From: Lepidurus packardi
Taxonomy: Eukaryota > Arthropoda > Branchiopoda > Notostraca > Triopsidae
Length of the DNA: 64,000 nt
Reading direction: 5' to 3'
Assembly: GCA_023053545.1 (NCBI GenBank)
Contig: JAKZAN010000105.1
Coordinates: 1-64,000, forward strand
Both the position numbers and the translations under genes were made by a program. The first letter of the stretch is position 1; each line of letters starts with the position of its first letter. Shown here one piece after another: positions 1 through 21,744 of the stretch. The notes below the pieces were generated by a model. The model did no database searches. It worked only from the letters and a program-made list of their open reading frames with translations, and was not told the origin of the DNA.

Positions 1-206
1 CCAACCCCAACCCCAACCCCAACCCCAACCCCAACCCCAACCCCAACCCCAACCCCAACCCCAACCCCAACCCCAACCCCAACCCCAACCCCAACCCCAA
101 CCCCAACCCCAACCCCAACCCCAACCCCAACCCCAACCCCAACCCCAACCCCAACCCCAACCCCAACCCCAACCCCAACCCCAACCCCAACCCCCAACCC
201 CAAACC
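1..206. repeat. Macronuclear telomere, C4A2 repeats (C-rich strand)
   Basis: Roughly 34 tandem CCCCAA units run from the first base. They are uniform to about position 190, then one unit carries an extra C and the last units drift before unique sequence starts. C4A2 is the telomere repeat of oligohymenophorean ciliates; spirotrichs use C4A4 and heterotrichs other repeats. Because the C-rich strand starts at its 5' end here, this is a true left chromosome terminus. Confidence 0.98.
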
Positions 207-2746: not shown

Positions 2747-4569
2747 TCATACATACTGATATTCCCTCGCTTTCTCATCGGATTCCCTCACAAACCTAAT
2801 AAATGCTTCCACGATGTTGATTGGCTTCTCCTCCTTGATTTGCATGATCGCTGAGTTCACACTAGGCATCACTAAGTCCAGCAGGTACTGCTTCAGATTC
2901 ACTCGAGAATCATAACCGGGGTTCTCAACAAACGACACCGAAGGAGCTGCCTCATCCACTTGCGCAATATAGGTCTTCGTCCGTGCACTCTACTCTTCTG
3001 CTTTTTCTCCTTCCTTCGCTAAGTTGGCCAGCGACTCTTTAAGCTCCTCTTCACTCAGCACCCTTCCCTATGTGAGCAGCGATGAATACTCTTTGGTCCC
3101 GTATACAATCTCCTGATCACTGTTTTTGGCTGTTTCAAACACAATTTTGAGGTTTACTTCTCCCGTAAAGTTGCTGATAGCAATTATATAGCCGTATATG
3201 TTGCCGACTAACAGTTTCTCACAGATTCTCTTCGTTAACTCCGCAGAATAGGGCACTTGACGTACCTTTTCTTCAGATGAACCTCCTTTACTCTTTTGTT
3301 TGTTTTTCTGGGCTTAAGCGGCTTGATCAAGCTGGACCTGTTTTTATGTCTGCAGCATAGCCGAAAGATCGGGGTCGTTTTCTGGGAAAGCTTCTATATC
3401 TTCAATCTGCTTCAGAAGAGTTTGGTGGTTTATGAGCTTAAAGCTGAGCTTGGAAACCATTTCCTGTATGCACTTAGATCGTTCCTCTGGGGTTCCTTCA
3501 GCAATAAGTATCCTCAAGGGTTCAACATCATAGTTTTTTCTGACTTCAGCCATGATCATTTTCCTTTTAGCGACTATACCTTCCTTGCAGACCCAGATGA
3601 TATCATCAAGCTCCTTGCTCCTCTTTATCCTGAGGTTGAATGTCCATATCTCTTCAAATGGGTTAAAACAAGATGGTTCTTGATGGATGTGTGTGGTCCC
3701 CAGTTCCTCTGCGATAGTCTTCACAAGAGTCAACTGTGTCTCCTTAGAATCATCGACAGCTATATAGTAGGGCAGAGGTGCTGGAGACTTAAGGACTTTG
3801 TCAATGATACTGATTAAATCATCGATATGCAGCATGGGGAGAGTGTTGTTCCCCTAACCATAGCAGACGAGGGGTTGTTTCTTGGAATACACACGATCGA
3901 ACTGCCATTCGAATTAGTGGTAACGTCTTCCATATAGCATACCGTAGCAGATGATAGATTTGATTAAAAAGGTTGATGGAGAAACAGTGGAGTCCATTAT
4001 TTCCCCCAGGAATAAGTTCTACAGTTCGAAGCTGTAAGTGGATTTGTGATGTGGCAGTCTGCTTTTCACTGATTTCTCTTCGTACTCAAAACTACTATTT
4101 TCCAAGGGTTATGTCTACAAGTATGCGTTAGAATGTTATGTAAGAAGACGATAAAGAGTACGAGGCGTTTGATGGTTTCTTCAACGGACTCTTTGGTATG
4201 GTGGGAAGACCCATTCACATATTTCTGGAGAAAAGGGGTGTTGACCCAGGTACAAAAGTTGGAAAGTGCGATGACCCTTTTCTGGACCGTCAAGGCTGTG
4301 CAGTTGTTGAGGTACACGATCAATGGTTCCGATTCTGGCGGGCACTTAATCAGGTCCAGAATGATTATATCGCAGCCCATGGCTGTTTTGATGATGGAGT
4401 TCATGATGGAAGAGTCATTCTGTTTAAAAAAGCCTGAGAATTTGGGATCTTGGGAAGAGACAGTGCCGAAGAACTGATTGCAGCCGTGGACTTTCTGGTG
4501 GTCGTCGCGGAGGAGTTCGACGATGGCTTGGCAGACATCGGAGTCTATGTTGGAGATAAAGATCTTCAT
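2747..4569 (-). CDS. AK7-like ciliary protein with degenerate adenylate kinase domain and Dpy-30 motif
   Basis: Exons 4569-4162 and 4114-2747, joined by a 47-nt intron, give 591 residues ending in TGA. The architecture matches adenylate kinase 7 (CFAP75). The N-terminal NAD-binding-like domain starts MKIFISNIDSD and contains FGTVSS and CDIIILDL. It is followed by ICYGMLYG and YGEGNNTLPMLHIDDL, then a kinase-like region, then a C-terminal Dpy-30 motif (LKQYLLDLVMPSVNSAI). AK7 proteins usually carry a P-loop of the GPPxxGKS type after a segment like 'LRILI'; here that position reads LRILIAEGTPEERS, so the phosphate-binding Gly-Lys-Ser is missing and catalysis is doubtful. AK7 works in motile cilia and Dpy-30 motifs dock to radial-spoke or similar anchoring helices. 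The gene is divergent from the dynein gene (182-base gap). It is shorter than animal AK7 (about 720 residues). Confidence 0.85.
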
Positions 4570-4751: not shown

Positions 4752-7700
4752 ATGAGCTTCCCTCGTCGGCTTCAACGAAGTCTTTCCGACAACCTCCTCT
4801 TGCGCTTCAAACCTACCCAACTCAAATAACTCGCACAGAAGCAAGAGCCAAGCATCCTTTCGCGCAGCTCCTCCACAAAAAGCCTCGTACGCAGGAAGTC
4901 AAACAGCCTTTGCAAACTTGATCCCATCCAAAGGTAGTCCAAATCTCTGGATCCGGTGGCTACACAACCTTTGGGTCGAAACATGGAGATCAGATCACGG
5001 TACTTTCTTCTTTCATAACTCTATACATTGCGAGCCATTCTAAGTGTGTTAACCATGTCAGGAAGTATCTAAAACTCGAAAAAGACGTCTCTCCAAAGCT
5101 GGGATTCCTTGAGCCTGCACGCAAACTCGTTGAGTTAATCTGTTTACTCAAGGACCATGAACCGGGCACCTTCTACTACATCGAGCTGGATCAAAAATAT
5201 AATTATCGCCTGGTTAACGCCCCTTCGAGGACAGAGCACAAGTTAGTCGAGGGTGTATGTAGTGTCTCTGCGAAAGGCCTTATGCGTCTCGAGGATGGCG
5301 CCTTATAGTTAATCGGCCCTGAAAAGCTAAAAATAAAAATCAGCATCTGCTAGAAGCTTGAGCATAACCCGTTCTTCAAATCCTTTCTGAAAACGAAGAT
5401 TTTTCGGAAGTGGAAGAAGAACATCAATATTAAAGCATTCCTTAAAGGCAGACATAGCATATAACGATCTCTCGACCTGTTAGAGCCAAACATGAGGTAG
5501 GCCATTATGAAGTGTGAACTCATTCTGTCCGAGTTCAGATAAATGAGGATCATAAAGACCCTGAACTTTGAACCCATCCCTGTAAGCAAGTATGCAGAGT
5601 ATCTAAATTGGTGTAGTCGTGAGGCACAAGAGTTCTTCCGTAATGGACCTTACAACTAAATCCCCCGCATAGCCATGGAGCCTATCAAGAAAAAACTGAT
5701 AGTAGCGGAAAGATAGTACCGCATGCAAAACAACCCTTATTCGAAAGGGTATATTGATTTTGCAGACAGCTATGATATGAGGCTGACCTACAAAAGCATT
5801 GAGAAATTCATCAGAAAGTCATATTTCATGTCGTGCCACAGCAAGATATCTTTCGTGTATAGCTGTTTGGATGAGATTCTACAGAAAATCAGCACTTCCT
5901 TAAAACTGTACCTTGCAAAAGACAAGCAACCAGTGCTGAAGTACCTGGAAAAGTGTTCTTAAACTATCCCACAATAGGACTTCGTTGTGACATCGTACCA
6001 CCACAGGCAGATCGAGATGATAGTGTGCGAGATCGTTCTCGAAAACAAGTAGGCAGTCTCCAAAGCTTCCAACACAGAAATCTATAACATTTTCATGGGC
6101 TTTTTGAACGAACTCATCAAAAGGCTAGAGTTCAGGACCGAGGACCATTTATACTTGACTGCTGGTGAGTACAAACTACTCGAAAATCTCAAAGACAAAT
6201 CGGATACCTATAACCTGAGTTTCGCACTTAATCATCAGTCTAAATATTCAGAAGCTAAAGCTGCACTCAACAGCCTGCTAAGTGAGCACTTCGAGGAGCT
6301 GAAACTATTGCTAGCCTTGTATAATAAGATCATGGCTGAGTTCTTTGGGTTCATCGACAGCCAACTCCAGTACTCTTTCTCAAAACGCCTGGAATTCATC
6401 AGGAACCTCAAGAAGAAGATCGACAAGAGCATATTCGATGTCAACATTGGACTACTAAATGTAAGGACCAGTGGTTTAACCCAACAACTACTGCGCATCT
6501 TGGAAGACATTAATTCACAAATTCTGATGCACATCCCCAAGACTTTCCACAAGAAGCAATCTATGCTGCTCGACACCATCAACAGCTACTCTTCGATGAT
6601 CCGAGGAGTGTCTACGAATAGCCTCCGTGGCTTCGTCTAGTGCTACAAACATATTGAGGAGTATGAAAATCTAAAAGATGAGCGCATCTTTAGAATCCAG
6701 CACGAACTCAAGTAGCTGCTCGCACTCATGCCCGATAACCAGCGGCAACAGAAATCCAAAATGATAGAACTCTATGTACAGCTCGAAACACAAATCAGCC
6801 AGTTCAACCTCAAGATCAAGCTCTTCAACGATAAGATAGAAGAAGTAATCGAAGGTCTCGCAAGACAGTCCGAGTCGATAGCCACTCTTATCACCCAAAA
6901 GCTCAAGAGGATTGAACAAAACATGCATGACAACATTGAATTACCGTTTAAAGCTCTACTGGCGACTCTGTGGGCCCAAATGGATCTGCTAAAAGAACTT
7001 GAAGGTGAAATCGAGGATGTCAGCGTCATTGAACAGCTGTCTACCAACACAAACACCTTATCAGAGTTCCCTTTGGCAAAAATTATCCATTATGAGCTTG
7101 AAAATCTGATACACTTGCTGCTTTCACACGCGACCTTCAGCTAGAAGGTTCGAGAAATCGAGACTTGCCCTTATCGATTAGTGGATATTAGTCACTTCAT
7201 TAATAGCTGCAAAGACATGAACTACCAGCTGAGGGTGAAATCGAAGCCATTACACCAGTTCTAGAAACTAATCAATAAACTTCTCGACTATTTCCAGCAC
7301 TACCAGTTAGTGTTTAAGACTATAACCAACCTCCAAAAACTGGCTGAAATCGATCTAATCCACCTCGCAGAGATGGGACTTGAAAGCCCCTCACTTATTG
7401 ACGAGTGCATATCTAAACATAAGAGTATCAAGTTCCTCATCGACAATGACATCCAGAATCACTACGATATCTCAGCCGAGCTTGTGAAGAGAAAAGAAAA
7501 GCAAAACAACCTCGAAGCTTTACTGAGTCAGCTGGATATAGAATGGGCTTCACTCCAGTTCTTTACGACACCCAAAGACGATCAATTCTTTCTGAGCAAT
7601 CTTGACACTCTGACTGAGGTATTGTCGCAACTTTAAGCACACTTGTGTTCGGTTATCAATTCAAAACATATCGGATCTCTTTATGATCGCCTTGACAAAA

Positions 7701-10700
7701 ACTACAAAATGATCAGCTATAGCCTCGAGACCATCTAAAGAGTCAACAAAATCCAGAAAGAGTTCTCCCAGGCTTATACGCTTATCATGCATGCTTAGTA
7801 AATTAATCAGTTCAGTAAGGATTCGAAGGTCTTCAACCAGGCTCTACTCCAATGGAGAAAGGTTACCGATAAGTTAGGCACTTGCAAAGTTTAGCGCATT
7901 GCCAAAGACAGCCCTAACCGTTCCTTCTATAAGGCCCTTGATAAGGTAGAAGAAGCTGTTTCGAGTCTACGATAATATCTAGACCAAGTAACATACAAAA
8001 AGAGAGAATAGTTCCCAAAGCTTTTTTTCCTCGGCAAAGAAGAACTGATCAAAGTCTTTGAGTCGAAACATCGTTTCTTTACCATGTTCTACAAATCAGT
8101 GTCAATGATCTAGATTGAGACTGATAGTCTACTTATCGAGACACATTATGGAGAGTTTCTGCGTGTGACTTTGGAAGAAGAGACCAAGGTAGACAAAGAT
8201 AACTATGTTGCCAGACTCGACAACGCTCTTATGGCTACTATCAAAGAGTAGTTGCTCGAGTACTTAGCGGATTCGACGCCTGAAGAGGATTTAGTGTTTA
8301 GGATGATGAAAGACCGTGTTCTGACCCAGATTATCCTGACGGTCGATTTTATCGAGTCCTGTCGCAGGCTAGAAAAGGCAATGTCACAGTATAGATCTGA
8401 TGGAGAGTTGAATAACGAATACGTCAAGAAGAACGTTGACTATATCTAGATGCTTGTACATCATCTGAGGAGCGACTCCGATTGGAAACACTACGAAATT
8501 ACCACTGTCTAAACCCTAGCTCTTGAGCGCATTTATATCAGATAGAGATACTTGGCACTTGAGAATGGAAATAAGGAGTATGAGTTTGCGATGATCGCGG
8601 GGGCTGACACTGACTGCTACCTAGCCGCCGGACCTTTTCGAATCAATATGGATTACAATCTCGTGGATACTCAACATTTTCTGTAACCCTATCCTAGTTT
8701 CCAGAGAAGCTACTATCATATTCTGATGACAGCTTCTCAGTTCCATACTCAGCATGGAGGCCTCTTGGGATATTCTTCCGAACAACTCAGCAAAACAATC
8801 TGTTCTCTCACGATGCGCATCTACTTCGAGCTGAGACTAGGCGAAACAACCAACTATTTGCATAGTCTCATCGGGGCATGCAACACAAAGGTATGGTGTA
8901 TCTACCACTCCCTAACTGGATCCAGAAGTACTGATAAGCTATTTTAAACAATCCTCAAGATTAAGGATAACTTGCCATTAAGGAAGGTTCGTTTTGAGGG
9001 TCTAAACTCCAGCTATAAGATTGACCATCCCCCAGTTCTATTTCTGGTTGAGCCACAGAAGACTATCAATGGTATTTCTTGGGCTATGACTCCACCTGAA
9101 CTCTCCGACGAAGTGAAAAGCTATTTTAGAACTGTGTACTACCGGCACCCAAGCATCCATCAGATACTAGAACTCCAGCTGACAATGTACGAAATCAATG
9201 ACAAGTAGTTGGCATCATCCTGTAGCCTAATTCTTGAGGCTGTTCAGGCTGAGATCGGTTTAAAGAATCACGTGAATCTTTTCACCCCAGCGACTCTGAA
9301 GAAAATCGTTGAGGTGTTCGCCAATAAGTTCAACAAGCATAAAACCAACAAAAAGCACTTTTTGGAGGCTGTAAAAAAGGTGGTATCTTTTACGAATTTG
9401 TATGACTAGGAGTTCAGGCAGATCTAGAAAGTATTGGGCCCATCAGAAGAAATCACCCTAGCCTATAAAGGTATAAACCAAAGGTACGAAGATGCTTTTA
9501 AACAGATATGTCCCACCAATGGGTCTCTCTTGAACAAGTTCAAATAATTTTACCAGGCCGTCAAAATAAGCAACAGTGTTTTTCTGGTGGGTCCAGCCTT
9601 AGCTGGCAAATCCCTGGTTTGGAAGTCCTACAAGAAGATACTCAATGAAAGGTAGGAAAAGTCCCAGAAACAGATTCTCACCTACGAACTCAATCTAAAG
9701 GCATTCACTCATAAAGAGCTACTTATGGGGGAAAACACTGAAGCCGGGGAGACGTGCGGGCTCCTTTCAAAATTCATCAATAATAGCATCGACCACACGA
9801 TTCCCTGTGAATGTCTGCTCATCTTCGAAGGATACTTCCTACCAATCACCCAACCTTATATTAACGGTCTTTTTTCGAGAGAAGCCCGATTCGTTCAGTC
9901 AGTAAGCGGAATCAAAACCCCCATTAATAGCGAGACAAAGTGTATTTATGTGATGGAATCTCTGGCGGATGTTCCTCCTTCTATCGTTCTAGACTCTCGG
10001 AAAGTGGTCTTCTAGGAGAGTCTGATCCCTGTCAAGGATTTCTACAACGAGTAATGCGATTTGACGATCTCTGAATTCGTCCCAAGCAAGTATAACGCTC
10101 ATATGAAGGACGAGTGTGACAAGAAGTACTAGAGGTTTGATAAGTTTTTCAGTAGCTATCTTCCGAGCCTAAGCTTGCTCTGCAACGTTTCTGCCAAAAC
10201 TGTGATCCATGATACCTTTCAGCTTCTGAGGTCTCTGCTGCCCCCAAAGTAGTCCAACGAAAAGCTAACAGTATTTGTGTTCATATCGCTCTTCCGTAAA
10301 GGACTGTTCTATTCATTTGCGACTGTTCTTAATTGTGTGGCAGTGGGCGACCAAAGGAAACAAATCGAGAAGATCGTCAAGGACGAAATATTCAAGAAGG
10401 AGGTTTTTAGTCGATAATTTTTGTTTGACTGCATTTTCTAGTGCAAAGACAGAAAAGAGGGTGATATCATGGTGCCTGACCTCCTAGATAACCCTCAGTC
10501 GTATTCGTAGGCTCTCTACGTGGAGACACGCGAGACCATCGTCCACCACCACATACTATCTTCGTTGCTGGCCTCCAAATACAGCTTAGTGGTGCTTGGA
10601 AACGCGGGTTCCGGACTCACGTCATTCTTGACCAACTAGCTTCAGAGACATGATGTGTTCAAGAAGAACTTGAAGATGAATAGGAGTATTCTTGCCAATG

Positions 10701-13700
10701 ACTTGGGAAAGATCTTCAATGAAATGGTAAACCATAGGACTTAAAAACACACTATTTCAAACGCTATTTGGAATACTTTGGGGAAATCAGTATCTTGCAC
10801 AGCCCAAGACATCATTATCTATGTCTAAGACCTATATTTGGCAGAAAGTCCCAGCAGCACCAAAGAGTACTTGAAGAGCACGGCAGCCAAAGGGGGGTAC
10901 ATCAATGTGCAGACCGGGGTCTTCAATGAACTCACCAACTTCCGGTTCATACTGGAGAAATGTCCTGAGAGAGATGCTCCGATCAGCTATCACAAGTCGC
11001 TGTTCTACTACAAGTATGAAGTGAGCAACGACTACTTTGAGTCCATATTCACTGTCATGCTCAGAAAGACGCTAGTTTCTGTTTATTAGTGGGATCCAGT
11101 CACACCTGAAAACGAGAAGAAAATAAAAAGCCTGAGCAGCGCCATCATGTACATTTTACGCATCGTTTCCGAGAAGTACAAGATGACTCCTTCGAAGCCC
11201 TTTTGTCGGATCAGATTCCAAGAGTGCAAGGGCGCACTGAGTGCCTTACTGCTGGCCAGCAAATCGATGAAGTTCGAAAGCAGGAAGGAGGTGGATACTT
11301 TTTTGTTCCATCAGCTGGCGTACAAGCTGGGAGACAAGCTGCAGAACAAGAATGAGTGGTAAGATGTGATTTTTATGGTCGAAAATAAAGCCAAGGAGTT
11401 CGAAATCAAGATGAACATTCGAAAAGAGTGCTATTTCTATGGAAACTATGTGACCAAACAGACATTCGATGAGTTGGAAGTCAACTTCATAAACAAGATC
11501 AAACAGAGCTTCGGCAACTCCCGCAAGGTCTAACTGAAGCAAGAGACTCTCGGCTTCCTCTATTCCATCAGCCGCTGTCTCTTTAACACCGAGAATATCA
11601 TTCTGGTTAACTCGAGCAGTCTCGACTGCCTCTCCCTTTCCGACATCTTCAAGCTCTACGACCAGGATATCTTCTACGTCCCTGAAAACATGAATCGTGA
11701 ACGATTTGTGGAAACCATCCGCACTATATTAGTTGACACCCAGGAAATAGCTTATCTAGTCATGCACATCAGTTAGGCACAGCAAGTGCACCATATCTTC
11801 AATACTCTTAACAGCTTCTTGTGTCCTTTCTTCAAAACCATCACCGAAATCGACGAAGACCAGGAAAAGACTCTAAAGCTCTTCAGCGTCAAAATCCGCT
11901 TCGCATTTGTAATACATGACAGCCTGGAAAGCTTTAAAATACTGAGTGAATTCAGGGCAGTGACCAACTCATGTCACATTATACAGCTGAGGGATTTGTC
12001 TCCAGAATCAATGAAGAAGATTATCCAGGCTCAGGTGGACAAAAAACCCTTGAGGGTTACACAAGCAAGAGACCCCAGTATGCCTAGGCGCGAATCCATT
12101 GCAACTTCGGTTTTCCAGTTTCAGCTTGTAAGCCAGCACCTGAAGGAGATTGAGTACGAACAAGGTATACTAAATGGTCAGTAGCCTAAAAGAGACGATC
12201 CGCAGACATTCTTGAAGGGCCTGCAGAAGGATCTATACCATTACTACGACCTGCTTTCAAGGTTGTAGATCAGCAATAAAGAAATCAAGACTTATCTTCT
12301 GAAATCGGGACGATTCTACGCATTCCTGGAGTGCTATAAAAGAATCTACGAAGAGAAACAGAATTTGATCATGTTCAACAAGACAATCATGGAGTCTTCC
12401 AAAGAGAAGATAGTCGAAATCTTCGAGACCATCAAAGCAGTCAAGGATCGCTACATCCTTGTCTCCAGGAGCATCCGCTTGGTACAGGCATAGATTTCCA
12501 CCGTTAAAGCCAGCATCGAAAAATGCCAGTAATCCTTTATTCATTTATGCGTCGTCTCGGCTTTTAGTAAGTAGTATGCACTGTAGGTCGAGCTGTTCTA
12601 AAAGGAAAGAAGGGAGCGTGAAGACCTTATAGAACTCATCGAGGCTAAGAAACGCTAGATTGACAACAGAATTAGGATGGCTAAAGAGACTCGTGAGTAC
12701 AGCCAGCAGTGTTTTACTAGCATCAGTCGTTCGGTATAGTTCAAACACAATAACCTATATTATGTGAATGATAGGACGTGTCTGAACTGAAATCGGAGTT
12801 TTTTAACAACTACTCAGTTCTGAAGGACTTCTACGACTCGATGTGCCTGCTGCTGAATGAGGTGCCAGATATGAATGCAGCCAAGAAGGTGCTGTTCGAC
12901 ATCAACTTCAAGGCGAGGCTCAAGGATGTGCGACTCAGCAAGACAGACGACAATGTGTTAAAGACTATTCAGCTAAAATTGGAACAGAATTCAGAAGATA
13001 TTTAGAAGCTCTCCTCGATCAAGAGCCTCAACGACTGGATAAAATTCGGTGTCGATTCGGAAATCGTAAAAGCTTACTCCAACCTATTCTTTCCTCATGC
13101 CAACGAACTGTTTAGAGAAAACGAAGGCTGAAGTCTGACGTCGACAAGATTGAAGCATAAATGGCCGAAATCAACAACAGGATAGACACACTCAACACTA
13201 AACAAGAAAGTGAGTCAATCATCTAGTACAAGTTCCTTCAGGAGACCCACGCAAAGCTTGACACCAATATCAGGAATCTCATTGAAGAAAAAAAGAAGTC
13301 TGAAGAAAATATGAGGTACTATGAAAAACTGGAGCAGTTCAACCCTCTCAGAACTGACTGGCTCCTTAAGCATGAAGAACTCAAAATCCAGTAAGAAACA
13401 CTGGTCTTCCGGTCCATTAGTACGGCTTTTTCGATCGCAGTCGAAGGAGTGCTCAGGCCGAATGAAATCAAAAGTTTCAGGAATCTCATTAATAGTTAGT
13501 ATAAGAAAACAAGCATGAACAAACCCGAACCCTATAAAGTAGACTCCTTCTTAGAGGAGCTTATAAAGGAAGAATTCAAGTTCACTCTGCCTGACAGTCC
13601 TGTTGCTGAGAGAATTTCCATGATCCAGTACGCCCTCAGTCGAGTCAACCGCAATATCCTTCTCCTGAGCACCCCATTTGAGATCATGACAGCCTTCTAT

Positions 13701-16334
13701 AATAGCACGCGAGTCTGCTTTGCGTATGCGTATGAGGGGTTCGATGGTGATGCCTTCGACGAGCTGATCAAAAGAGCAGTGTAAGAGGCGAAAATCTGTA
13801 TAGTATTCGTTGATAAACACCCACCACGAAGCCTCATCAAATTCCTGGAACAATAGTTCGAATATAAGGGTGAGAAGAAGTTCTGTCGGTTCGGCGCGAA
13901 CTAGGTGGAGATTCGACCAGACTTTCGTCTAGTACTCGTCAAAAAAGACTTATCACGTTACGAAGGGTGGATGGCAAATCTCATCGTCATGGAGCTCAGC
14001 TTTCAGGAATCTGACTTAAGCAGCTATTTCACGGACGGACTGTTGCGGAAATGTGCCAATTTCGACCCAGCAGGACATCTGAGCAGAATCGAAATCCTGA
14101 ATCAGGAAGGGAGGGATAAGCTGTTGACAGTATTGAATGAACTGGCCAAGGTTCCCTCTTTTTAGGATCTCGAAGATGAGTACCTTTAGGAGTTACTAGA
14201 GTTCGTCAAAGCCAGAGAAGTCATAAAGTGTAAACTCCAAGTCGAGACAGACGCCATCAATAAGATGTACGTGTGTTCCAAGGAATATATCGCCCTCTCT
14301 CACAAGCTGGCATAACTCTTTAGAACTTATCTGAATCTCATCGGTATCAACCCTGAGCATGAAATCACCTTCGACCATTTCCTGAGCACCATTATGGACA
14401 TCATTGGTACTGCGACTTCCTTTAATGTTGACGAGGTTATCAAGGCAATCTCTCACAGGCTGTCTGAGTGTTTGGACATTTACACTTCGAATCTATTCGC
14501 GACTGCCCTGTACTTGAGGATGGATCTACTTGTGGAAAATAAAGTGACTTGGCAAGAGATGGAGAACATCCTTTATTAAGAACAACCTTTGGAGTTGATG
14601 GAGGCATTCTTACCAGGACCAAAGCTTGAAAGAGTGCAAGAGCAGTTTAAACTGCTCCCTCACCGAAGAGTGGAATTCTAGAACTTCATCGCATACCTCC
14701 TCAAAGCTGATATTTAGGAATAGGAGAAGATCCTGATCGAGATCAATCGGCAGAAGCTGACCTTCGGAGAAATGACTCTGCTGAAGAAGTATCTGACTCC
14801 GACCATTCTGGACAATGAAGTCGCCCCCAACATAAACCGATACCGCGACTATACCAGGACGGATCAGATGTTGGAGTCACCTGGCCGTCTATTTATCAGC
14901 TTTACTGATTCGTTCTTCTGGAAACAATATCTCAACGCTGACTCGGTTCTCCCTGGCATCCAGTCTATATTTTCTTCTAAAGTGTAGAACAGGCAGTTCC
15001 TCAGCTCAATCCAGGCCAAGTATATCCTCATTTTCAACGATATGGAGAGCATTTCCCACTTGCTGGCTCTCATTCCTAAGAGAATCGACCTTACTCAGAA
15101 AAGAGTGGTGCTAGTTCTCAACCGCCACGACCGCACACACCGTTCACGCAGAGTCTCTCTCAGTGCCTTCCCTAAGATTAGCTTCTAAAAGATTCTTCTA
15201 AAGTTCGAGTATGTCCTCAAATTCATCATCGATAACACTATCCCAGAAAACTCCATCCTCCTGGGCCTCAAAAGATCATCTTCGATAGCGAGCTACTAAG
15301 AAAACTCCAGCGCCGCTCGCAGCAACGATAACCTTTCTCGGAGAGAAAACTATGACGACAAAGGTCAAGTGGGGAAAGAGATCGCGACCAAAATTCTGAA
15401 TATAGTACACAGTAGGGCTCAAAGACAAAACAAATCCAAAAGGTCTGCCCGACCTCTTATAGCTAAGCCTAACTTCTTTGAATAGATCCTAACCCTCCAT
15501 AAAGTCGTGAGATCCCGGGTCCAATGGGATTGCATCGACCCTATCATCGTAGCCACTCTTCTGCCCAAACTGACCGACCGAAACTAGATTGAGTTCTGCC
15601 AATTTTTGTTTGCAGAGCCTAAACGGAGTTCCCATATTTTGAGGGTTCCAAGCAGATCGCCTATCGAGCTGAGAAACTATGCTTATGGAGCTTACTGCGT
15701 GTTCAGGTTCTGCAACCACACAATAGAGAACATAGACAACCCTAACTTGACAAAGCAGCAACTTTTATAAAAAATTCTGGCGAACTTCGATGTAAACAAG
15801 AACTTTACCCAGCGAAAAATGCCTACAGATTCCAAGCTCCGAACTTTCTTTTTGGATAATCTACAGACTTACAAAGACCTAGCAGTCCAGTAGATCGACA
15901 TCATTAAGAAGTGCATCGACATCGAGAGGGGGAAACTGCCTTTTAATGTTCGCAACTAGAGGCTGATCGACGCCTTCGATATCCAAAGAAGCACAGCTCG
16001 GCTTTCCTGTTACCTTGGGCGCTACAGATATTACCAATCTGAAGTCGAGAAGAAGTCGACTGCCACAATCGATATGGACAAAAATCATGACTTGCTTTAT
16101 CTGCTAAAGACGGTGTTCAATAAAGGAGCATTCAACTTCGATAGCAATGGTCGTGACCTGATGCTGCAGAAGAATGGGGTGGGGATCGGGTTGAGCTAGA
16201 CTGACAATGTGAGCATCGTGGATGGTGCCAACTACGTGAGTATTCCTCTGCGGACAGACCTGGACACGATTATCGTCAAGATGCCGATAACCCAGATTCC
16301 AGCTATCGACAACTTTACGGAACTGCTCTTCTGA
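4752..16334 (+). CDS. Giant divergent dynein heavy chain, probably ATPase-deficient
   Basis: Exons 4752-4999, 5035-12733, 12775-13065 and 13116-16334 join in one frame to about 3,818 residues, ending in TGA. Order of parts: Ser/Arg-rich start, long helical tail and linker (to residue ~1260), six-module AAA ring, coiled-coil stalk with microtubule-binding domain (genomic ~12250-13400), AAA5-AAA6 and a C-terminal domain. Dynein-like landmarks include the AAA1 entry segment EYEFAMIAGADTDCYLAAG and the AAA2 entry FLVGPALAGKSLVW. The AAA1 Walker A position reads GGLLGYSSEQLSK and its Walker B position WCIYHSLTGSR, so both motifs are lost. AAA3 reads GNAGSGLTS (Lys replaced by Leu) and AAA4 reads VNSSSLDCLSL. 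Only AAA2 keeps GxxxxGKS. The tail is some 600 residues shorter than in usual axonemal chains. The three introns (35, 41 and 50 nt) were placed by frame and splice signals; the start is the first ATG in frame. This is a dynein-family protein, but hydrolysis-driven motility is unlikely; vertebrate DNHD1 is a precedent for a divergent family member. Confidence 0.85.
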
Positions 16335-18021: not shown

Positions 18022-19887
18022 TCACGAGGAACCTGCTCCTCCCTCTACTTCTGTACCATCATTCTATTTCCCTCCTGCTTCCTATTTATCTTCTGAGGTT
18101 CCCTCTTTACCTTCAGAGTTGTCTCCGCCCGCCCTCACACTCGACTATACACTCTATCCTGTCTCATTTGGCTTAACATCTTGTCCATTTTAGGTACTCA
18201 CGACATTCTTTGATTGTTGAACCTCGTCCAACTTTCCAATCAGAGTGTCATAAAAATCCCCGTCTTCGTCTTCCTCTGCATGAGGGTTGAGGCTCTTATC
18301 GCCTCTAAAGTAGTCGTCCTTAGGCCCAGCAGCTTCTTGGAAAGCCTCCACAAAGCTATCCAAGTCAATGCCGAAACCATCCTTCAGTGTAACAATTGAG
18401 CTTTCTAAGGGCATTTATTTATTGGCATAGTATGAGTTATACTGGATGTAGCCTGTAACGTAGTCAATAAACTAGGCTTATTGTTCTGCTACCTGCTTTG
18501 GCCTGAAGAGTTCTTCACAGAGACAAACTATCTTGTTGGTTGCGTCCCCCCCATCATCTCTGTTATCCAATATGGTTTCAAAGGTGTAGATGATGTTTTC
18601 TCCCGGGCATGTCGAGGAAGATTCGTCCAGAACAAAGAGAGTAACAGGGTGGACGAAATCCTTATGATCATAGATATGGCACAAGATTGGGCCATGCGAA
18701 TTGCATAGCAACTCTTCAGGTTTCTTGGCTATTATAATGACTCTAAGCAGGTACTCGAGCGAAGCCTGAGACTCTTTGGCCTGGACACAGTTGATATGAT
18801 TGACGTACGGAGGACTAACGTATAATTTCTTTGCCGTGATCAGCCCCTCGGGTGCCAAATTACTCTTCACTTTGAGCTTGTCTCCTTCAACTTCCACACC
18901 TTCGATGGTTATCTTAGGGTGCAGGATAAAGATAGTTCCAAAAATAGATCCGATCCTACTGTAAGCTTGAGGAATATCTCCGATGCCGTTGTCTACGTAA
19001 AGGTAGGGTGTTTCGCCATACACTCCACATGATTTGACGAACTTCCCGAACTTCTCGATCATGCTCCTCACAGTGTAGTCTTTTTGCAAGAAGACTGGAA
19101 TCGGATCTGTGATTTTTCGCTGGTAGTTGCAAATGACATAGGCGATGAGAGACACAAGCTTTATGTTGTTGGCGCATAGCTTCTGCAAAAATGGCAGACA
19201 AAATTTATCCAGGTTCTCGCGGAACTCTGTCTCTAGAGACTTATCCAGAGGGACGTCTTTGTCTAATTCGCTGGTGGAATTAGCGTCTGATTCGATGTTG
19301 TTATGAGCATAGTAGAGCTTCATTAGAGTATGCAGGGCCTTCAGTAGATTTTTCTTCTCGAGCATGCCTAGAACTTTGGTGTCAAAGATCATACCCTTGG
19401 TTAGTGGAACTACTTCGAGCTTACCCTTGACATAGAATAGGAGCTTATTGACGATCCTGAAATCCATATATTTGTCCATTTCGGCTTGCTTAAGGAGCTC
19501 ACACGTGATACTGGAACCATAAAAGAACCTGGGTTGGATGTCGATGCTGAAGTTACGCAGTTTTTGGTTACCCTTGCGATACTCAAAGTTCTGTTCATTC
19601 AGTGCACGGAATTTCTAAGGGGTAACTATCCTGTAAGGAAGGCAGCAAGGACCTTAGGGGTCATTCACGGTAGTCGAGAACTCATGGAACTATTTAAAGG
19701 ATACGGTTTTGAGTCCGGAACCATAGGTCTTCTGGATGTCAAGAACGAGACCACGCTGTTTGTTGATTTTGGAGAGGTGAGCTGCCAGCATGCACTCAGG
19801 CAGTCCAGTGCCGAGGACGAGATAGTCATAGTCGTACTGGTCTGGCTCGAGGGTGAAGGGGAGTTGCGTGTAGTAGGGATCTTGCAT
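18022..19887 (-). CDS. Rab escort protein / GDI superfamily
   Basis: A single open frame of 621 residues runs from ATG at 19887 to TGA 18022-18024. The N-terminal dinucleotide-fold signature YDYLVLGTGLPECMLAAHLS is typical of Rab GDP-dissociation inhibitors and Rab escort proteins. It is followed by a segment reading FSIDIQPRFFYG and MDKYMDFRIVNKLLFYVKGK, then SRIGSIFGTIFILHP and a divergent C-terminal half. The length and the long acidic Ser/Gly/Glu tail favour Rab escort protein over GDI (about 450 residues). Rab escort protein presents new Rab GTPases to geranylgeranyl transferase II in the cytosol. TAA/TAG codons are read as Glu, for example in the TPEKFRALNEQ region. It has no intron and a divergent promoter shared with the YAK1 gene (221 bases). 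Confidence 0.85.
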
Positions 19888-20108
19888 AGGGGGTGGATTG
19901 GCGGGAGCTAGAGGTGTTATAAAACTATCCTGCCGGGTTGTGTAATTTAAATAACATATCTGTCTGATTCGTACGGGAGGTAGGGATGGGAGGCTACGGT
20001 TTATACGATACAGCCAGTATAGGGATGTGGGTGTTTTTAACTATACGTGCATTTAACTCCAAGCACCCACCTCTTCCGCCAGCACCAATATACGTTTATT
20101 ATCGAGCT

Positions 20109-21744
<1,636 letters not shown>

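Follow-up and report, generated by a model that had tools for sequence, protein, structure and literature searches.

The stretch of DNA analysed here (the window) is the first 64,000 nucleotides of contig JAKZAN010000105.1, from an assembly deposited for Lepidurus packardi (GCA_023053545.1; 108.6 Mb in 344 contigs), and it carries, at positions 4752-16334 of the forward strand, one intact gene of four exons with a product of 3,809 residues. The feature is real and unusual: a variant on the known dynein heavy chain, from which, we are nearly certain, the motor site has been lost. We call this contig and its dynein gene C94, other C-numbers denoting other contigs of the assembly. An earlier note on this DNA had the gene coordinates right, from the ATG at 4752 to the TGA that ends at 16334, and was mistaken in describing a frame continuous for more than 11 kb; the frame breaks near 5000, 12734 and 13066, and GT-AG introns repair all three breaks. 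Exon 1 (4752-4999) supplies the start ATG and a basic N-terminal tail, and is the best and not the sole possible start, ATG, GTG and TTG being absent from the exon 2 frame before 5282. The predicted intron 1 (5000-5061; GTACTT..TGTCAG, 62 nt) restores the frame, as one choice among many alternatives. Exon 2 (5062-12733) encodes the tail, linker, AAA1-AAA4 and stalk helix CC1, with matches to Pfam DHC_N2, AAA_6 and AAA_7, and is followed by the predicted intron 2 (12734-12774; GTATAG..GATAG, 41 nt, phase 0), again one of several options. Exon 3 (12775-13065; 97 codons, with a phase-0 intron on each side) holds the microtubule-binding domain (MTBD), placed by alignment and by the 14-chain profile described below. 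Beyond the predicted intron 3 (13066-13115; GTAAAA..GTTTAG, 50 nt, phase 0), exon 4 (13116-16334) encodes the second stalk helix CC2, AAA5, also seen with that profile, and an unrecognised C-terminal region, and ends in the TGA stop. In this gene model, skipping of exon 3 would preserve the frame and yield a dynein without its MTBD.

All three introns were predicted from sequence and picked by hand from several options, and an automatic gene finder preferred a different intron, of 125 nt, that splits the gene into two. Introns 2 and 3 are of a GTA..TAG type found repeatedly, at lengths of 44-62 nt, in introns predicted for other genes of this ciliate; the list also contains many predictions outside this size, which are probably spurious. 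CAG closes intron 1, and the 41 nt of intron 2 fall slightly below the 44-62 nt range. In each of the other 14 heavy chains of the ciliate the frame stays open for 11.5-13.9 kb, with no break like that around exon 3, and for this reason a frameshift pseudogene had to be weighed. Since GT-AG introns of a recurrent type restore the frame, we reject the frameshift pseudogene and regard sequencing errors as an unlikely cause of the breaks. The reading frame contains a single TGA, the stop itself, against 62.7 expected by composition, the other two forward frames contain 112 and 124, and codon usage correlates with that of normal dyneins at r=0.91. The single in-frame TGA and the codon usage together mean that the gene was maintained as coding sequence throughout a long past divergence; it is intact, the frame meeting no premature stop along its 3,809 codons, and the gene is not broken. 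No close second copy or allele was found in the assembly, where 5282-12733 finds two weak partial paralogue matches and 13161-16331 finds only itself.

The gene is written in a peritrich genetic code, NCBI table 30, in which TAA and TAG are glutamate. At conserved columns of ten normal heavy chains, 22 of 29 TAA/TAG codons fall on Glu, five on Asp and one each on Gln and Lys, which rules out glutamine, while 149 of 204 CAA/CAG codons stand on Gln columns. Reading TAA and TAG as Glu alters 81 residues of the product and no P-loop reading. This code supports a peritrich host, the kind of organism that the earlier note had named. Two eukaryotes seem to be mixed in the assembly. On its large contigs C1-C6 the dynein genes are in pieces, as if split by introns (C4, for example), and these contigs look like a different organism; in the part of the contigs that was listed, C73 and C74 bear CCCCAA repeats at both ends and C94 at its start.

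The product is a dynein heavy chain that has diverged very far. It matches Pfam DHC_N2 at E=1.5e-19 (70.6 bits, cut-off 31.9), and the table 30 translation of 5282-12733 matches AAA_6 and AAA_7 at 4.2e-7 and 6e-7; with this profile search, and with its length of 3,809 residues, the identification of a full-size dynein over about 3,800 residues holds good. Pfam Dynein_C finds no match in the product. For comparison, 15 chains on small contigs were collected by an AAA_6 search and one more, C120, by a DHC_N2 search, all counts being lower bounds, and two profiles were set against each other, one of all 14 other aligned heavy chains and one of ten normal chains only, the query being left out. Against the 14-chain profile the whole chain scores 225 bits (20 shuffles, -89 to -9), the linker (residues 800-1240; 7211-8533) 78.1 (shuffles <=-4.9), AAA5 26.1 (<=-1.2), the MTBD (residues 2636-2745) 20.5 (<=3.6) and the tail 6.5 (<=3.0). 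With this profile the linker, AAA2, AAA3, MTBD and AAA5 stand clear of their shuffles, and AAA1 and AAA4 are located mainly by position. The normal-chain profile gives 68 bits for the linker, 25 for AAA2, 28 for AAA3 and -6 for the eroded AAA1 module (residues 1241-1500; 8534-9313), which aligns to positions 149-327 of Pfam AAA_6. Among modules AAA1-AAA5, AAA1 scores highest in all ten normal chains and lowest in C94; it outscores the linker in 11 of 11 chains (the ten normal ones and C325b) and falls below it in all four of C226, C193, C297 and C94. The predicted AAA1-AAA4 fold matches dynein in a Foldseek comparison. Midasin is missing from the 50 listed of 979 Foldseek matches, all dynein or doublet-microtubule entries, and from the eight PDB matches of 5282-12733 up to E=10, which are chains of DNAH6, DHC2 or IDAa or unnamed AAA+ ATPases; lists of this kind do not suffice to exclude it.

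The signature of a dynein motor at AAA1, GPAGTGKT / CFDEFNR, is absent from C94. In the paralogue alignment the AAA1 Walker A position (8753-8794) reads HGGLLGYSSEQLSK, with no P-loop; the Walker B position (8894-8920) reads WCIYHSLTG in place of WxCFDEFNR, sensor I (9080-9115) MTPPE in place of MNPGY, and sensor II (9266-9304) LFTPATLKK in place of YGMRAVK, its Arg being lost. The arginine-finger position of AAA2 (9968-10000) reads DVPPSIVLDSR in place of ASPATVSRCG, SPATVSR having become PPSIVLD. The functions ascribed here to sensor I, sensor II and this finger, which we take to serve the AAA1 site, are those of dynein structural work. At AAA3 the Walker A position (10598-10624) is GNAGSGLTS, with Lys changed to Leu, and the Walker B position (10811-10840) is IIIYVEDLYL, whose acidic pair (VED) is kept if TAA/TAG is Glu; at AAA4 the Walker A position (11606-11638) is VNSSSLDCLSL, with no P-loop. 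The Walker A of AAA2, GPALAGKS (residues 1593-1600; 9590-9613), found by motif scan and alignment, is the sole instance of G....GK[STC] in the protein, which rules out a genuine Walker A elsewhere in AAA1; its G1593 and K1599 do not vary across alignment A1, which has 14 sequences (C220 left out). The AAA2 Walker B position (9815-9838) reads LLIFEGYF. The alignment is of middling confidence around the gap at the Walker A of AAA1, where posterior digits run from 4 to 9, and of high confidence at AAA2 and AAA3. The four Walker sites of C94 lie at residues 1314, 1593, 1929 and 2265, a spacing that resembles that of normal paralogues (1594, 1875, 2220 and about 2574 in C266). The motifs quoted by the earlier note are present at all four modules as it read them, the loss of Walker A at AAA1, AAA3 and AAA4 is borne out by alignment, and AAA2 does keep the only P-loop. 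The note's claim that this dynein cannot work as a motor has strong support, for all the AAA1 catalytic elements examined are gone, among them three that the note did not name: both sensors and the arginine finger of AAA2.

The stalk is also altered. Its helices CC1 and CC2 measure 130 and 94 residues in 12 of the 15 aligned chains, and CC1 of C94 (12284-12733) is, by alignment, 13 residues above the typical 130; the other deviating chains are C297 (124/89) and C226 (128/88). The MTBD is short, at 84 residues, as against 87 in the paralogue C112.

C94 does not stand alone in its genome. The catalytic Glu of AAA1 is missing in four of the 15 aligned chains, C94, C297, C193 and C226. The full-length C297 has lost both Walker A and Walker B at AAA1 and keeps GPPNSGKS at AAA3; C193 (GEEGSGKT, FDSF) and C226 (GEVSCGKT, FENL) keep the AAA1 Walker A. 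The sixteenth heavy chain, C120 (57500-77300 of its contig), has a frame of 2,832 residues with a recognisable linker and no P-loop, its exact protein being unsure since the gene finder placed two introns in it; by eye its AAA2 and AAA3 positions read GETSSKS and GGALSFRR. The AAA2 P-loop is one residue shorter in C193 (GERSSKS), C297 (GPHSQKT) and, by eye, C120, which is possibly a shared derived trait. These four chains are like the window gene in having lost the AAA1 Glu or, in C120, any P-loop, but none is a close copy of it, and they differ in the retained AAA1 Walker A of C193 and C226, the AAA3 P-loop of C297 and the shorter length of C120. No other of the 15 aligned chains is as diverged as C94, which has 13-16% identity to its paralogues over the motor and the longest branch in the tree of the 15, where C325b, C226, C193, C94 and C297 group with support 100 over inner nodes of 31-60. 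Long-branch attraction is likely here, and given the long branches and weak inner nodes we do not claim a single origin of the diverged chains. For C297, C193, C226 and C325b alike, the N-terminal part matches 8glv_Fm best among PDB chains; DNAH6 first appears in third, second, fourth and ninth place, respectively.

The closest solved relatives of C94 belong to the DNAH6 group (8j07_g5, E=2.9e-12; 9fqr_Xz, 2.9e-11), which we take to be of the single-headed inner-arm type; 8glv_Fm, an 'AAA+ ATPase domain-containing protein', also matches (1.4e-11). C94 shares a short MTBD with this group but differs from it in lacking the AAA1 catalytic elements, in its altered stalk length and in its unrecognised AAA6 and C-terminus. 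According to PMC7215579, AAA1 is the principal ATPase site of ordinary dyneins and AAA2-4 are regulatory; with ATP at AAA1 the ring closes, the stalk helices shift and the tip comes off the microtubule. In animals, DNHD1 is called a 'ghost gene', maybe becoming a pseudogene, in part of PMC8754002, and by that description alone it is, like the window gene, dynein-related and apart from the motor heavy chains; unlike DNHD1, the window gene sits in a ciliate with at least four other heavy chains whose AAA1 site is degenerate or missing. A term search of PMC9916431, on DNHD1, found none of five motor terms. The passages of PMC3341644 on heavy-chain counts give 19 for Ichthyophthirius and 25 for Tetrahymena and do not discuss dynein P-loops, and a term search of PMC12411067, on peritrich genomes, found no mention of dynein. 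Our searches of the open-access literature, judged from listings, gave no paper on inactive or non-motor dynein in ciliates and no relevant title that joins peritrichs to dynein heavy chains.

The window opens with a (CCCCAA)n telomere (1-203, forward strand), which marks a chromosome end, so the dynein gene lies about 4.5 kb from it. Between the two, on the reverse strand (2747-4569), is a gene like that for AK7 (adenylate kinase 7), with its start (ATG at 4569) and one intron predicted; its frame at 2750-4180 matches the AK7 chains 9d2f_D (E=1.3e-10) and 9fqr_Xc (3.3e-10). The two genes are divergent, head to head, with 182 bp between their predicted ATGs. Because 9fqr, titled '96-nm repeat of axonemal doublet microtubules from bovine sperm', contains an AK7 chain, the pair hints at cilia, which is suggestive only. 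By eye, the possible kinase P-loop of the AK7-like gene reads AEGTPEERSK and may be degenerate too. On the other side of the dynein gene, at 18025-20157 on the reverse strand, lies a GDP-dissociation-inhibitor homologue (Pfam GDI, 7.3e-25) of 711 codons that looks diverged by eye.

Overall, we lean towards the view that the window gene is intact and encodes a diverged, most likely axonemal dynein heavy chain that has ceased to be a motor and acts as a passive element. With the AAA1 site gone, no P-loop at AAA3 or AAA4 and an altered stalk, the ordinary dynein cycle should not run, and the parts that would remain are the tail and linker, a ring possibly pinned at AAA2, and the tip. The protein is likely to have retained a non-motor function, and we propose that it may bind microtubules as a static cross-linker or cross-bridge. 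In such a scheme, the protein would fold as a ring with the aid of a nucleotide that is bound, and not hydrolysed, at AAA2; the tail would dock on a doublet in the manner of single-headed inner-arm dyneins; and the stalk tip would contact microtubules with no nucleotide-driven release cycle. At an inner-arm-like place, the product could then be a passive cross-bridge, act as a spacer or add drag; alternatively, it could be a placeholder, occupying an inner-arm site so that no active motor sits there.

Several observations weigh against this reading. The conserved AAA3 arginine facing AAA2, whose role we infer, is also lost, and the paralogues C193 and C297 have the shortened AAA2 loop, both of which argue against AAA2 as a pin. 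The stalk helices of C94 measure 143/91 residues, given the chosen introns, so the usual constant length is lost, and the tail matches residues 266-321 of DNAH6 only weakly (12 bits, i-Evalue 0.16). Of the earlier claim that ring order, stalk and MTBD are kept, the part that stands is what the 14-chain profile recognises; AAA6 and the C-terminus (residues 3201-3809) do not match that profile, AAA1 and AAA4 rest mainly on position, and with normal chains alone AAA4 scores 1 bit, the MTBD 0, AAA5 4 and AAA6 with the C-terminus -3. These near-zero scores mean that erosion extends beyond AAA1 and that microtubule binding is uncertain. The structure model of the C-terminal part has a predicted local distance difference test score (pLDDT) of 44, too weak for use, even though the 50 Foldseek matches listed for it are dyneins or doublet-microtubule entries; with AAA6 and the C-terminus unrecognised and this score, a closed ring can only be inferred.

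The same erosion could be read as decay, in a redundant paralogue for which constraint has relaxed and the frame has yet to be broken. The extreme divergence of C94, the several modules besides AAA1 that score near zero against normal chains, and the suggestion, in part of PMC8754002, that DNHD1 may be such a ghost in animals are all in keeping with this, but the absence of any premature stop where dozens of TGA (62.7) would be expected, the codon usage, and the persistence of linker, AAA2 and AAA3 are not. A recently dead gene, in particular, fits badly with deep divergence in an open frame, and we consider decay unlikely.

Less probable still, in our estimate, is that the protein is a tail-and-linker scaffold for docking or assembly, its ring, stalk and tip being vestiges that bind nothing. 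The linker is indeed the best-scoring part of C94 and the sole clearly recognised part of C120, and stalk lengths have changed in C94, C297 and C226; yet AAA2, AAA3, MTBD and AAA5 all score above shuffles in C94, which would be odd for a useless ring and stalk, and the tail on which a scaffold would depend reaches only 6.5 bits where shuffles reach 3.0. Nor do we give much credence to an ATP-gated latch, with AAA2 as one working nucleotide switch that changes the shape of the protein upon ATP binding with no stepping. Such a latch would account for the invariant Gly and Lys of AAA2 and for its being the only P-loop left, but the Walker B position there is IFEGYF, the facing AAA3 arginine is gone, and in ordinary dyneins, as part of PMC7215579 has it, AAA1 is the principal ATPase and AAA2-4 are regulatory; we regard it as very improbable.

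If the passive, non-motor reading is extended to the other diverged chains, then at least five of the 16 heavy-chain genes might form a peritrich class of non-motor dyneins in which catalysis has been dismantled, mainly at AAA1, with AAA2 left as a structural pin and the products serving as passive elements of cilia, a broader claim that we advance tentatively and with some doubt. Were it true, the window gene would be a full-length member of the class, and the one whose P-loops have been lost most completely. Dynein is by definition regarded as a motor. Heavy chains graded from normal to catalytically empty, within one ciliate, would amount to a natural experiment that separates what the ring needs in order to fold, perhaps AAA2, from what it needs in order to work, AAA1 and a constant stalk length. 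In this context, whether inert dyneins act as spacers or brakes in cilia would become a testable question, and DNHD1, a puzzling gene of animals, would gain a possible parallel.

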